Positions 18,019 to 21,141 of a stretch of DNA of 21,986 nt are shown piece by piece. A program made the position numbers and the translations under genes. The notes below the pieces were generated by a model. That model was not told the DNA's origin and did not search any database. It was given only the letters and a program-made list of their open reading frames with translations. This DNA is from a virus. The stretch is from positions 1-21,986 of IMG/VR virus record IMGVR_UViG_3300033148_000307; one strand, given 5' to 3'. Within the stretch, counting starts at the first letter, position 1; each line of letters begins with the position of its first letter.

Positions 18019-18031
18019 TTACATTATATTA
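18019..18031 (+). promoter_or_regulatory. TTACATTATATTA control element, fourth copy
   Basis: TTACATTATATTA differs by one base from the 5791 copy and again ends a base before an ATG (18033). It lies between a small zinc-ribbon gene and the ParB-like gene and probably sets start of the ParB/ABC/terminase transcript. Confidence 0.5.
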
Positions 18032-18032
18032 T

Positions 18033-18551
18033 ATGAAACAGCAAGTTAAAATTAGTCAAGTAAAAAGAAATCCAAATAATCCTAGAATTATTAAAAATGA
18101 TAAGTTTAAAAAATTAGTTAAGTCTATTCAAGAATTTCCTGAAATGTTAAAGCTTAGACCTATTGTAGTTGATGAAGATATGATAGTGCTTGGTGGAAAT
18201 ATGCGACTTAAAGCAAGTAAAGATGCTGGTCTAAAAGAAGTATGGATAGAAATAGCGGAAGGATTAACAGAAGAACAAAAAAAAGAATTTATAGTAAAAG
18301 ACAATGTAGGATTCGGAGAATGGGAATGGGATATATTAGCTAATGAATGGGATAGCGTACAATTAGCAGAATGGGGATTAGATGTCTGGCAAAATGAAGA
18401 TGATGAGCAAAATAATGATGTAAATGACATATCAGATAATATATCTGAAGAATATAGAGTTGAAATAGAATTAACATCAGAAAGAGAACAAGAGCAAGTA
18501 TTTAATGAATTAACTAAAAAAGGATACAAATGCCGAATTTTGACATTCTAA
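18033..18551 (+). CDS. ParB-like (ParB/Srx) domain protein
   Basis: The 172-residue protein begins with the ParB N-terminal fold: KISQVKRNPNNPRIIKNDKF, a helix (LVKSIQEF), RPIVVDEDMIVLGGNMRLKA (GGNMR at 54-58), and SKDAGLKEVWIEIAEGLTEE. The region ends in EWEWDILANEWDSVQLAEWG. The C-terminal piece after an acidic linker (YRVEIELTSEREQEQVFNEL) is also usual in phage members. ParB-like domains in phages often accompany DNA methylase or other DNA modification genes and can act on nucleotides or DNA, not only in plasmid partition. No methylase is present here. The next gene is an ABC-ATPase/GNAT fusion overlapping by 22 bases, so the two probably act together. Confidence 0.75.
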   Translation: MKQQVKISQVKRNPNNPRIIKNDKFKKLVKSIQEFPEMLKLRPIVVDEDMIVLGGNMRLKASKDAGLKEVWIEIAEGLTEEQKKEFIVKDNVGFGEWEWDILANEWDSVQLAEWGLDVWQNEDDEQNNDVNDISDNISEEYRVEIELTSEREQEQVFNELTKKGYKCRILTF

Positions 18552-19609
18552 GAGAAAGTAAACCAAATAAAACTTTCAGGGTTTCATCTGTTATGGGTAA
18601 ATTTGATTTACAAACTGAACATATTAAAGAACATTTTCAAGGAAGTATAGATATGCCAAATAATTGGCAAATTGGTTTGATTGTTGGCAATAGTGGAACA
18701 GGTAAAACAACAATAGCAAAAGAATTATTTAAAGATGCTTATGTTACTAATTTTGACTATAAAGCAGAAACAATTTTAGATGATATGCCTGAAACAGCTT
18801 CAGTAGATGATATAACTAAAATTTTTAATAGTGTTGGATTCAGTTCTCCACCAAGTTGGTTGAAGCCTTATTCAGTATTATCAAATGGTCAAAAAATGAG
18901 AGTTGATTTAGCAAATGCCCTTTTAAAAGAAGATGACTTAATAGTGTTTGATGAGTTTACATCAGTAGTTGATAGAAATGTAGCTAAAATAGGTTCTTAT
19001 GCAATGCAAAAAGCAATAAGAAAGTCAGACAAGCAATTTATAGCAGTAACTTGTCATCATGATGTCCAAGATTGGTTATTACCAGATTGGGTCTTTAATA
19101 CAGATAGTATGACCTTTCAAATACTTGAAGGGCAAAAAAAAAATAGACCAAAAGTTAAATTTGAAATATTCAAAACAAGAGATAAGTCAGTTTGGAGAAT
19201 ATTTGCTAAACACCACTATTTGAGTCATAGTCATAATAATGCAGCACATACTTATGTAGCTTATGTTAATGAACAGATAGCAGGATTTATAAGCATATTA
19301 CATTTACCTAATAAAAAACCTAATTTAAAAAAAGTGCATAGATTAGTAATATTACCAGACTATCAAGGAATAGGAATAGGAGGAAGATTGTTAGACTTTA
19401 TAGCAAAGAAATATACAGACGATAAATTTGTAATGGGAATAACAACATCAGCACCAAGTTTAATATTTTCACTTAAAAGACATAAAGATTGGAAATGTTA
19501 TTTTTTTGGAAGAAATACAGGCAAACAAAAAATGGTAGGATTTAATAAAACAAGTACTAAAAATAGAATAACCGCAGCATTTAGATATATACAAAATGGA
19601 ACAAAATAG
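18530..19609 (+). CDS. ABC-type ATPase fused to GNAT acyltransferase domain
   Basis: The 359-residue protein has two domains. Residues 1-205 form an ABC-type ATPase: Walker A GNSGTGKTT (53-61), signature-like LSNGQKMRVDLA (117-128), Walker B DLIVFDEFTSVVD (136-148) and an H-loop CHHDVQDW. There are no membrane segments, so it is not a transporter. Residues 210-345 resemble a GNAT acyltransferase: WRIFAKHHYLSHSHNNAAHT, then YVAYVNEQIAGFISILHLP, with HRLVILPDYQGIGIG (270-284) supplying the acyl-CoA pyrophosphate loop. The HHYLS start is shared with Mom-like GNATs that modify DNA bases in phage Mu. DNA modification is therefore an attractive inference, not shown. Start ATG 18530 lies within the ParB-like gene. 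Its end overlaps the terminase small subunit gene by 14 bases. Confidence 0.75.
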   Translation: MPNFDILRESKPNKTFRVSSVMGKFDLQTEHIKEHFQGSIDMPNNWQIGLIVGNSGTGKTTIAKELFKDAYVTNFDYKAETILDDMPETASVDDITKIFNSVGFSSPPSWLKPYSVLSNGQKMRVDLANALLKEDDLIVFDEFTSVVDRNVAKIGSYAMQKAIRKSDKQFIAVTCHHDVQDWLLPDWVFNTDSMTFQILEGQKKNRPKVKFEIFKTRDKSVWRIFAKHHYLSHSHNNAAHTYVAYVNEQIAGFISILHLPNKKPNLKKVHRLVILPDYQGIGIGGRLLDFIAKKYTDDKFVMGITTSAPSLIFSLKRHKDWKCYFFGRNTGKQKMVGFNKTSTKNRITAAFRYIQNGTK

Positions 19610-19952
19610 AACACAAATCGCAAAAGACAGAATGATAAAAGCACTAGAGTCAAGTCTAGGAGTAGTAACAACTGCATTAAAAACAACTAATCTGTCAAGA
19701 ACTAATTATTATAGATGGCTTAAAGAAGACGAAGAATTTGCGCAAAAAGTAAAAGAAGTTGAAGTAATTGCAAAAGATTTTATTAAGTCAAAATATTATG
19801 AATGTATAAAAGATAAAGTACCTTCAGTAGTTTTACATGGTGCAAAAACTCAATTAGGTTGGAATGAAACTAATAAAATAGATGTAACATCAGGAAATGA
19901 GCCTATACATACTCCACTAATAACATTCTACAAAACTGAGACTGAATCATAA
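19596..19952 (+). CDS. terS: Terminase small subunit (HTH type)
   Basis: The 118-residue protein has a helix-turn-helix in ALESSLGVVTTALKTTNLSR followed by TNYYRWLKEDEEFAQKV, the pattern of small terminase subunits with a Helix-turn-helix 'SRxxYYxWLKED' recognition helix. A coiled helix (AKDFIKSKYYECIKDK) and the typical SVVLHGAKTQLGWNE follow. It would recognise the packaging site and present DNA to the large subunit, whose frame overlaps its end. The C-terminal tail (TPLITFYKTETES) is a likely contact to the large subunit. Size and order are as expected. Confidence 0.8.
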   Translation: MEQNRTQIAKDRMIKALESSLGVVTTALKTTNLSRTNYYRWLKEDEEFAQKVKEVEVIAKDFIKSKYYECIKDKVPSVVLHGAKTQLGWNETNKIDVTSGNEPIHTPLITFYKTETES

Positions 19953-21141
19953 ATACAATCCTTTATTTGAATCTGATGCTCGTTATTTTATTATAACAGG
20001 AGGTCGTGGTTCTGGTAAGTCATTTGCTGTTACAGTATTTTTAACTTTATTGACAATGGTAAAAGGGATTAGAGTTTTGTTTACTAGATATACAATGGTA
20101 TCTGCTCATTTGTCTATTATACCTGAATTTTTACAAAAGATAGGTTTGCTTGGATATAATGATAATGTATTTTATGTAAATAAAGCAGAAGTAATAAATA
20201 CACAAAGCAAAAGTGATATTCTATTTAGAGGTATAAAAACATCAGCAGGAAATCAAACTGCGAGTTTAAAATCATTACAAGGAATAAGTTGTTGGGTATT
20301 AGATGAAGCTGAAGAACTTATAGATGAAAATACTTTTGATACTATTGACCTTAGTATTAGAGAAAAAAATATTCAAAATAGAGTTATACTCATATTAAAC
20401 CCAGTAACTAAAGAACATTGGATATATAATAGATTTTTTGAAAGCAAAGGCGTAGAAGGTGGTTTTAATGGTGTTAAAGACAATGTATGTTATATACATA
20501 GTACATATCTAGATAATATAGAAAACCTCTCACAAAGCTTCTTAGAGCGTATAAAAACTATAAAACATAACAACTTTAAAAAGTATAGCCATAAAATTCT
20601 TGGAGGGTGGTTAGATAAAGCTGAGGGGGTTGTATTTGAAAATTGGAGTATAGGAGAATTTAATCCTGATGGATTGCAGACTTCTTGTGGAATGGATTTT
20701 GGATTTTCAATAGACCCTGATTCATTAACAGAAGTAGCTATTGATAAAAAGAAAATGAAGATATATTTAAAAGAACATATCTATCAAAATGGTTTAAAAT
20801 CTCATGAATTAGCAAAGATAATATTAGATAAAATAGGAAATATGCTTATTATCGCAGATAGTGCAGAACCTAGACTAATTGCAGACTTAAAGCATTTAGG
20901 AGTTAATATAAGACCTGTAAAAAAAGGAACTATTGAAAGTGGAGTAACAAGAATGCAAGATTTCCATTTAGTTATATCTCCTGAATCAACTAATATAGCT
21001 AAAGAATTGAATAACTATATTTATGCAGATAAGGGTTCAAAATTATATGTAGATTCATTTAACCATGCAATAGATGGAGTGCGTTATAATATTATATATC
21101 ACTTAGATAATCCTAATGCAGGTAGGTATTTTGTGCAATAG
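19936..21141 (+). CDS. terL: Terminase large subunit, probable CTG start
   Basis: The reading frame contains Walker A GGRGSGKSF (near 20005-20030), the Walker B/catalytic part CWVLDEAEELIDENTFD, a motor-coupling region (ILILNPVTKEHW), and the nuclease part with CGMDFGFSIDPDSL, IIADSAEPRLIADL and NHAIDGVRYNI. This is an ATPase plus RNase-H-like nuclease that drives and cuts DNA during packaging. The first ATG at 20050 lies after Walker A and would make a non-functional motor. The frame is open only back to 19924, and no ATG, GTG or TTG exists there. CTG at 19936 (then RLNHKYNPLFESDARYF) or CTG at 19942 is the best start, giving about 401 residues and overlapping the small subunit gene. The ATP motor and nuclease are well supported; the start is inference. 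Confidence 0.85.
   Translation: MRLNHKYNPLFESDARYFIITGGRGSGKSFAVTVFLTLLTMVKGIRVLFTRYTMVSAHLSIIPEFLQKIGLLGYNDNVFYVNKAEVINTQSKSDILFRGIKTSAGNQTASLKSLQGISCWVLDEAEELIDENTFDTIDLSIREKNIQNRVILILNPVTKEHWIYNRFFESKGVEGGFNGVKDNVCYIHSTYLDNIENLSQSFLERIKTIKHNNFKKYSHKILGGWLDKAEGVVFENWSIGEFNPDGLQTSCGMDFGFSIDPDSLTEVAIDKKKMKIYLKEHIYQNGLKSHELAKIILDKIGNMLIIADSAEPRLIADLKHLGVNIRPVKKGTIESGVTRMQDFHLVISPESTNIAKELNNYIYADKGSKLYVDSFNHAIDGVRYNIIYHLDNPNAGRYFVQ

Follow-up and report, generated by a model that had tools for sequence, protein, structure and literature searches.

Mom of phage Mu is an adenine-modifying protein and TmcA/NAT10 is a tRNA cytidine acetyltransferase. Closer to the locus described here is a protein family that joins an ABC ATPase to a GNAT domain and is predicted to acylate DNA bases, according to the passage on this family in a 2021 jumbo-phage paper that credits Iyer et al. 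2013 (PMC7824862). The passage names a homolog, QAX98348.1, which is the product of an Aeromonas phage AsFcp_2 gene and was recovered here as a relative (tblastn E-value = 1e-43). The same text links QAX98348.1 to pT24; the pT24 homolog is split in its annotation. As far as that passage describes them, the AsFcp_2 type systems have the family, the ABC plus GNAT architecture and the predicted function in common with the enzyme of the present locus, thus the core claim of DNA-base acylation is already known as a prediction. However AsFcp_2 is a jumbo phage and has neither a tail domain (described below) nor ParB beside the gene, whereas the present locus is a smaller-phage form with an adaptor protein and a 22-base gene overlap. 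A literature search, with most subscription journals outside its scope, found no experimental test of the ABC-GNAT family and no paper on COG2401. An earlier account of the tail domain as the constant partner, of the Com-slot test or of the Arthrobacter gene swap was likewise not found in this search, which did not cover the text of Iyer et al. 2013.

Three other described systems are comparable in part. Mom/Com of Mu resembles the ABC-GNAT systems in the GNAT fold, in the Com-led slot of Mu-like phages, in the use of the same slot in Arthrobacter phages and, in some cases, in the presence of ParB beside it. Unlike Mom, ABC-GNAT displays a classic CoA loop (absent in the Mom sequences aligned), an ABC ATPase and a constant tail partner, and it is not a Pfam Mom. 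TmcA/NAT10 also carries an ATPase and a GNAT in one chain that acts on a nucleobase amine, and the structural match to TmcA (2zpa) spans both domains, but the ATPase is of a different type, the substrate is RNA and the overall superposition is weak. In phage ParB-methyltransferase fusions (PMC12704722) ParB-N is tied to phage DNA-modification genes, and the ParB protein of the present locus matches PHROG 498; here however ParB-N is fused to a 45-residue tail and is paired with an acyltransferase and not a methylase. In addition, the CaiB authors describe the genes ahead of the terminase in Gordonia DR phages as nucleotide-modification genes.

The viral record analyzed (the window) has a length of 21,986 bases, and in it genes for tail tape measure, head, portal, endolysin, replication-initiation, NinG and terminase proteins are recognised. 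All features given below are on the + strand. The first gene of the pair, at positions 18033..18551, is predicted to encode a 172 aa adaptor protein in which a ParB-N domain is fused to a C-terminal tail domain (Pfam ParB_N, E-value = 5.9e-6; matches to PHROG 940, 498 and 620). The ParB-N domain, of the ParB/Srx fold, encompasses aa positions 3–84 (18039..18284) and contains a GGNMR box. The tail domain, SEEYRVEIELTSEREQEQVFNELTKKGYKCRILTF, is at aa positions ~138–172 (18444..18548); it was detected by HMM and by inspection appears to be beta-alpha-beta. The second gene, at positions 18530..19609, encodes a 359 aa ABC-ATPase/GNAT fusion enzyme with full-length ABC-then-GNAT homology to PHROG 11143 (E-value = 9.6e-98 over residues 6–356).

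The initial annotation described a ParB-like gene that overlaps an ABC-ATPase/GNAT gene by 22 bases next to the terminase, and the open reading frame coordinates bear this out, with an overlap of exactly 22 bases at positions 18530..18551. It had also proposed a neighborhood search for such pairs, and a ParB open reading frame with the same overlap was found upstream in 79 of 79 pairs of the window clade. The overlap is present in the same register in 28 genome loci, in five loci of the Jace group, in Lactococcus P335 and in Streptococcus Javan141; the loci with this register include those of Planctomycete, Endozoicomonas, Gilliamella, Lactococcus and Streptococcus. Because it recurs in the same register across clades, the ABC-GNAT gene and its overlapping upstream gene are consistent with a tightly coupled and old gene pair. 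The arrangement also appears to be far beyond chance, since 305 viral relatives were found in one scan and the window-clade pairs share the same overlap throughout.

The initial annotation also proposed that the two genes share an upstream control element. The element TACATTATATTAT, a putative phage promoter or leader element, is located at positions 18020..18032 and is the sole such element before the two-gene unit. The sequence TACATTATA occurs five times on the + strand of the window, at positions 2582, 3322, 5792, 18020 and 21238. Four of these precede the ATG of a gene by 13 bases (genes at 2595, 5805, 18033 and 21251), and the other is 23 bases before 3345. No element of this type precedes the ABC-GNAT gene, the single copy before the pair being the one that precedes the ParB ATG. 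The count of the 12-mer with two mismatches allowed is not above chance, and it is the position before gene starts that is striking. A shared control element is plausible on position and not on enrichment, and TACATTATA is a probable promoter or leader element of the phage.

The ABC ATPase domain of the enzyme spans aa positions 1–203 (18530..19138; Pfam ABC_tran, E-value = 2.5e-9) and the GNAT acyltransferase domain spans positions 204–359 (19139..19606; Pfam Acetyltransf_1, E-value = 1.1e-9). An AlphaFold model of the full enzyme (pLDDT 87.9) shows the ABC domain followed by the GNAT domain, and the ABC part superimposes on an ABC nucleotide-binding domain with a VIA-align Z of 15.6 (rmsd 2.9 over 184 residues). 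The Walker A, LSNGQ signature, Walker B/D-loop and H-loop motifs are intact, and almost none of their positions vary among 77 relatives; the invariant residues include G53, S55, G56, G58, K59, L117, S118, G120, D141, E142 and H176. In the AlphaFold model there are no long hydrophobic helices of the kind expected for membrane segments. Thus the reading of the second gene as an ABC ATPase with intact motifs and without membrane segments, fused to a GNAT domain, was correct. In the GNAT domain, Y230 of the HHYL motif (aa positions 228–231, 19211..19222) is invariant and H228, H229 and L231 are at least 94% conserved. The PDYQGIGIG sequence at aa positions 276–284 (19355..19381) is the acyl-CoA pyrophosphate loop. 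Its P276, Q279, G280 and G282 are invariant in the 77 diverse members, as is W321, and the pattern P..QG.G.G is conserved.

Other scans recovered relatives of ABC-GNAT in 79 phage records and in 464 stretches of bacterial genomes. TerL is near 37 of the 58 testable bacterial-genome loci, which therefore look like prophages. In the tree, the window clade (SH-aLRT 100) is nearest to Endozoicomonas and Burkholderiales copies. One locus (L214:6001–9258) contains two ABC-GNAT genes, together with decarboxylase and CoA-transferase genes. The records annotate the relatives mostly as "hypothetical" or "ABC iron siderophore transporter" and similar. An ABC transporter ATPase was considered and rejected, as no permease was recognised in the conserved neighborhood.

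The upstream gene in Mu-like phages has a chain length of only ~50 residues, and these correspond to the last 45 residues of the ParB protein in the window. The profile consensus of this tail domain is similar to YGVIVxCxDExEQxxxYxxLxxxGYxCRVLTL. With the tail HMM, the domain was located ahead of ABC-GNAT in all 81 window-clade, all 80 Mu-like and all 34 Gordonia-type loci and in 70 of 72 genome loci (265/267 over the four main groups); the figures are somewhat lower under a stricter distance rule. These neighborhood counts are from profile searches on six frames; first-pass gene calling was crude in GC-rich loci. A query with the tail consensus matched 23 phage records, and all 23 also carry ABC-GNAT. 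The HMM detected no tail domain in Mom loci, and in the jumbo-phage clade both the tail domain and ParB are absent beside ABC-GNAT. The stand-alone tail of Mu-like phages is PHROG 28816, which is labelled function unknown. A tail-domain gene of Porphyromonas phages (L098:3873–4001) is annotated as an anti-CRISPR (acr) candidate, and it is more likely a partner of ABC-GNAT.

ParB-N is present in 80 of 80 window-clade loci and in none of 79 Mu-like loci, where the tail is found alone, and ParB was rejected as the constant partner. By these profile counts the constant partner of ABC-GNAT appears to be the ~45-residue tail domain and not ParB, and ParB-N, present throughout one clade and missing from the other, appears to be an optional fused module. 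The first gene is ParB-like as originally described, but the separate C-terminal domain had been missed. It does not appear to be a canonical partition ParB (ParB-N plus HTH plus dimerisation), given a chain length of 172 aa in which only ParB_N passes the Pfam cut-off and TIGR00180 is far below it. ParB genes also adjoin Mom in Microbacterium phage Antuna (L370:1969–3121) and in Sonny (L376:645–2061), therefore ParB pairs with two different GNAT types.

The gene order in Mu-like phages is Com, tail, ABC-GNAT and a formyltransferase-fold protein. Com, annotated as the translational activator of mom in Mu, precedes the tail and ABC-GNAT in 70 of 80 Mu-like loci (PF10122, E-value = 9e-21). In a separate test, 80 loci were collected by Com alone, many of them near copies and not independent. 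The next gene after Com is a DNA methyltransferase in 66 of these (N6/N4 in 47, D12 adenine in 17 and C5 in 2), with classes assigned from motifs and upheld by Pfam for representatives. ABC-GNAT is next in four, nine are unclassified and one is at a contig end. At least one of the nine (L456:2808–4094) has an ABC-GNAT behind Com and tail that is interrupted by ~650 bases. Several unrelated families fill the Com slot, and those identified all act on DNA. Such a Com-regulated DNA-modification slot is found in the Mu-like clade and not in the window itself.

A comparable exchange is seen in Arthrobacter phages. EastWest and Sonny have homologous flanks, with identities of 64% (EW73/SO68), 55% (ParB), 80% (DNA-binding protein) and 46% (clamp). 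Between ParB and the DNA-binding gene, EastWest has ABC-GNAT and Sonny has Mom (PF25680). In Antuna, ParB is followed by Mom. Aeromonas phage PX29 (GU396103) contains a homolog of Mom as well as one of ABC-GNAT, thus the two are not simple substitutes everywhere.

A formyltransferase-fold gene (Formyl_trans_N) is found in 56 of 60 Mu-like loci and 32 of 33 Gordonia-type loci. The Gordonia protein annotated as a tRNA-methyltransferase (gene 3, L082:1805–2452) is a Formyl_trans_N protein, and its record annotation was rejected. The Jace clade adds an aspartate decarboxylase (PF02261, E-value = 2e-33) and a CoA-transferase III-like protein (PF02515, E-value = 2e-8). By profile counts, the formyltransferase set and the decarboxylase/CoA-transferase set never occur together in one locus. 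Since beta-alanine is the product of aspartate decarboxylase and family III enzymes transfer CoA, a natural reading is that these genes would provide an acyl-CoA donor for ABC-GNAT in the Jace clade. The clade-specific partner genes suggest a variable acyl chemistry.

The GNAT domain had been considered Mom-like on account of its HHYLS and PDYQGIGIG sequences, and this resemblance did not hold up. Pfam Mom (PF25680, cut-off 27.1 bits) is not among the 25 Pfam matches listed for the window protein, down to an E-value of 0.12; the same profile detects Mu Mom (1e-75, 253 bits) and Sonny Mom (about 4e-61, 207 bits). In hhalign, the GNAT profile aligns to Mom with P = 0.0023 and to one E. coli RimI sequence, the sole control, with P = 0.00029. 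Only the HY[LS] motif lines up, with HY in register with HYS of Mom, and this alignment is suggestive only. A model of the GNAT domain alone (pLDDT 89.2) compares well with 1y9k (Z 15.1, rmsd 3.0, 138 aligned) and with RimI 5isv (Z 14.6, rmsd 2.8, 133 aligned). Mom structure 8bv8 is not among the fold matches listed, an absence that does not exclude a match. Thus comparison of the C-terminal half with Mom and GNAT families, the check that had been proposed, gave generic and protein N-acetyltransferases as the best of the fold matches listed. Membership in the Mom family was rejected on the lack of a Pfam Mom match, the better alignment to RimI and the classic CoA loop. The slot supports the view that the enzyme may work like Mom, and the sequence does not support its being a Mom. 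Alignment only with protein or antibiotic acetyltransferases was one half of what the initial annotation had set against its DNA-modification idea, and it is this GNAT half alone that was found.

Among the matches listed, the nearest folds of the GNAT domain are generic GNATs, RimI, Naa50 and other protein or small-molecule acetyltransferases, which favors a protein acetyltransferase for host takeover. Such an enzyme would acylate a host or phage protein, e.g. RNA polymerase or a packaging protein, and the ABC and ParB domains would be used for targeting; phage GNATs that act on RNA polymerase have been described (PMC7824862). This explanation is nevertheless unlikely. It does not account for the slots common to DNA methyltransferases and Mom, nor for the CoA-transferase, decarboxylase and formyltransferase partners, and an ABC domain would be an odd targeting part for a protein substrate.

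Directly downstream of the pair is a terminase small subunit-like open reading frame at positions 19596..19952 (PHROG 4044, E-value = 4.6e-4), which overlaps the enzyme gene by 14 bases, followed by the terminase large subunit gene (TerL) at 19936..21141 (Terminase_3, E-value = 4.4e-28; Terminase_3C, E-value = 1.2e-12). The terminase neighborhood noted initially is therefore real, and it extends to 75 of 75 window-clade loci, where TerL is nearby and the pair is directly before the terminase. This position, together with ParB and ABC folds that are typical of DNA clamps, could indicate a DNA-bound packaging or segregation factor, with ParB-N and ABC acting as clamp or loader for the terminase and the GNAT being regulatory. 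However the module lies apart from the terminase in Mu-like, Arthrobacter and jumbo phages, where ParB-N is often missing as well, and the GNAT CoA loop is invariant, which makes a packaging role quite improbable.

The TerL frame (19924–21141) has no ATG, GTG or TTG before Walker A, the first being a TTG at position 20050. When the open frame is compared, relatives likewise lack such a start and CTG codons are conserved near 19936–19942. On this shared pattern, TerL likely starts at a CTG that overlaps the end of the small subunit-like frame.

An RNA-acting enzyme like TmcA, which would acetylate tRNA or phage mRNA, is suggested by the full-length Foldseek match to TmcA (2zpa, rank 17, E-value = 1.1e-7). 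It is very improbable, as the alignment is loose (rmsd 13.7, TM 0.29), the TmcA ATPase is not ABC-type and the Com slot holds DNA enzymes. A phage-borne defence or superinfection-exclusion module is highly unlikely as well, since the weak matches to some PADLOC ATPase models (mad3, E-value = 1.2e-10) are limited to generic ABC motifs and no effector or nuclease gene is conserved beside ABC-GNAT.

The pair is probably a two-protein phage DNA-base acylation module. The argument is drawn from the sequence, i.e. the domain make-up, catalytic motifs, tail partner, gene overlap, Com slot, Mom swap and co-occurrence of CoA- and formyl-related genes. The proposal that the two genes form a system for marking phage DNA ahead of its packaging remains the best-supported reading, on the basis of the Com slot, the Mom swap, the terminase neighborhood and the CoA-related partners, and no longer on Mom-like motifs. 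The published prediction and TmcA, an architectural analogue in which an ATPase-GNAT acetylates a nucleobase, also favor DNA-base acylation. This support is stronger than motif resemblance, yet neighborhood evidence argues by association only, and clades of the family other than that of the window contribute most of it. Counted against DNA acylation are a GNAT no closer to Mom than to RimI, nearest folds that include protein N-acetyltransferases, and a jumbo-phage clade without tail and ParB.

In the proposed DNA acylation, the ABC domain, probably as an ATP-closed dimer on DNA, would hold and distort the duplex, and the GNAT domain would transfer an acyl group from acyl-CoA to the exocyclic amine of a base. 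The tail domain encoded by the overlapping upstream gene may be a dedicated subunit that binds the enzyme. In the phage of the window the ParB-N nucleotide-switch domain, fused to the tail, may load the complex on phage DNA. The genes open the packaging region, so that the mark would be placed on replicated DNA ahead of its packaging and may protect this DNA from host restriction. It is quite possible, and is put forward tentatively, that the family represents a separate class of DNA-base acyltransferases that depend on ATP, have a small adaptor domain of their own and attach clade-specific, partly new adducts. These might be, e.g. beta-alanyl-type with the decarboxylase and CoA-transferase, formylated aminoacyl-type with the formyltransferase and, in the window clade, plain acetyl or an acyl group supplied by the host.

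Phages carry this family widely, but its members are often labelled hypothetical or given as an iron-siderophore ABC transporter. The decade-old prediction is now directly testable in existing phages, i.e. Komp_PAO1_1 (PAO1), Gordonia Axumite and P335 (Lactococcus). If DNA acylation is correct, an ATP-using route of base modification would be added to the few that are known, and a role would be explained for the many small ParB-like phage proteins that adjoin ABC-GNAT.
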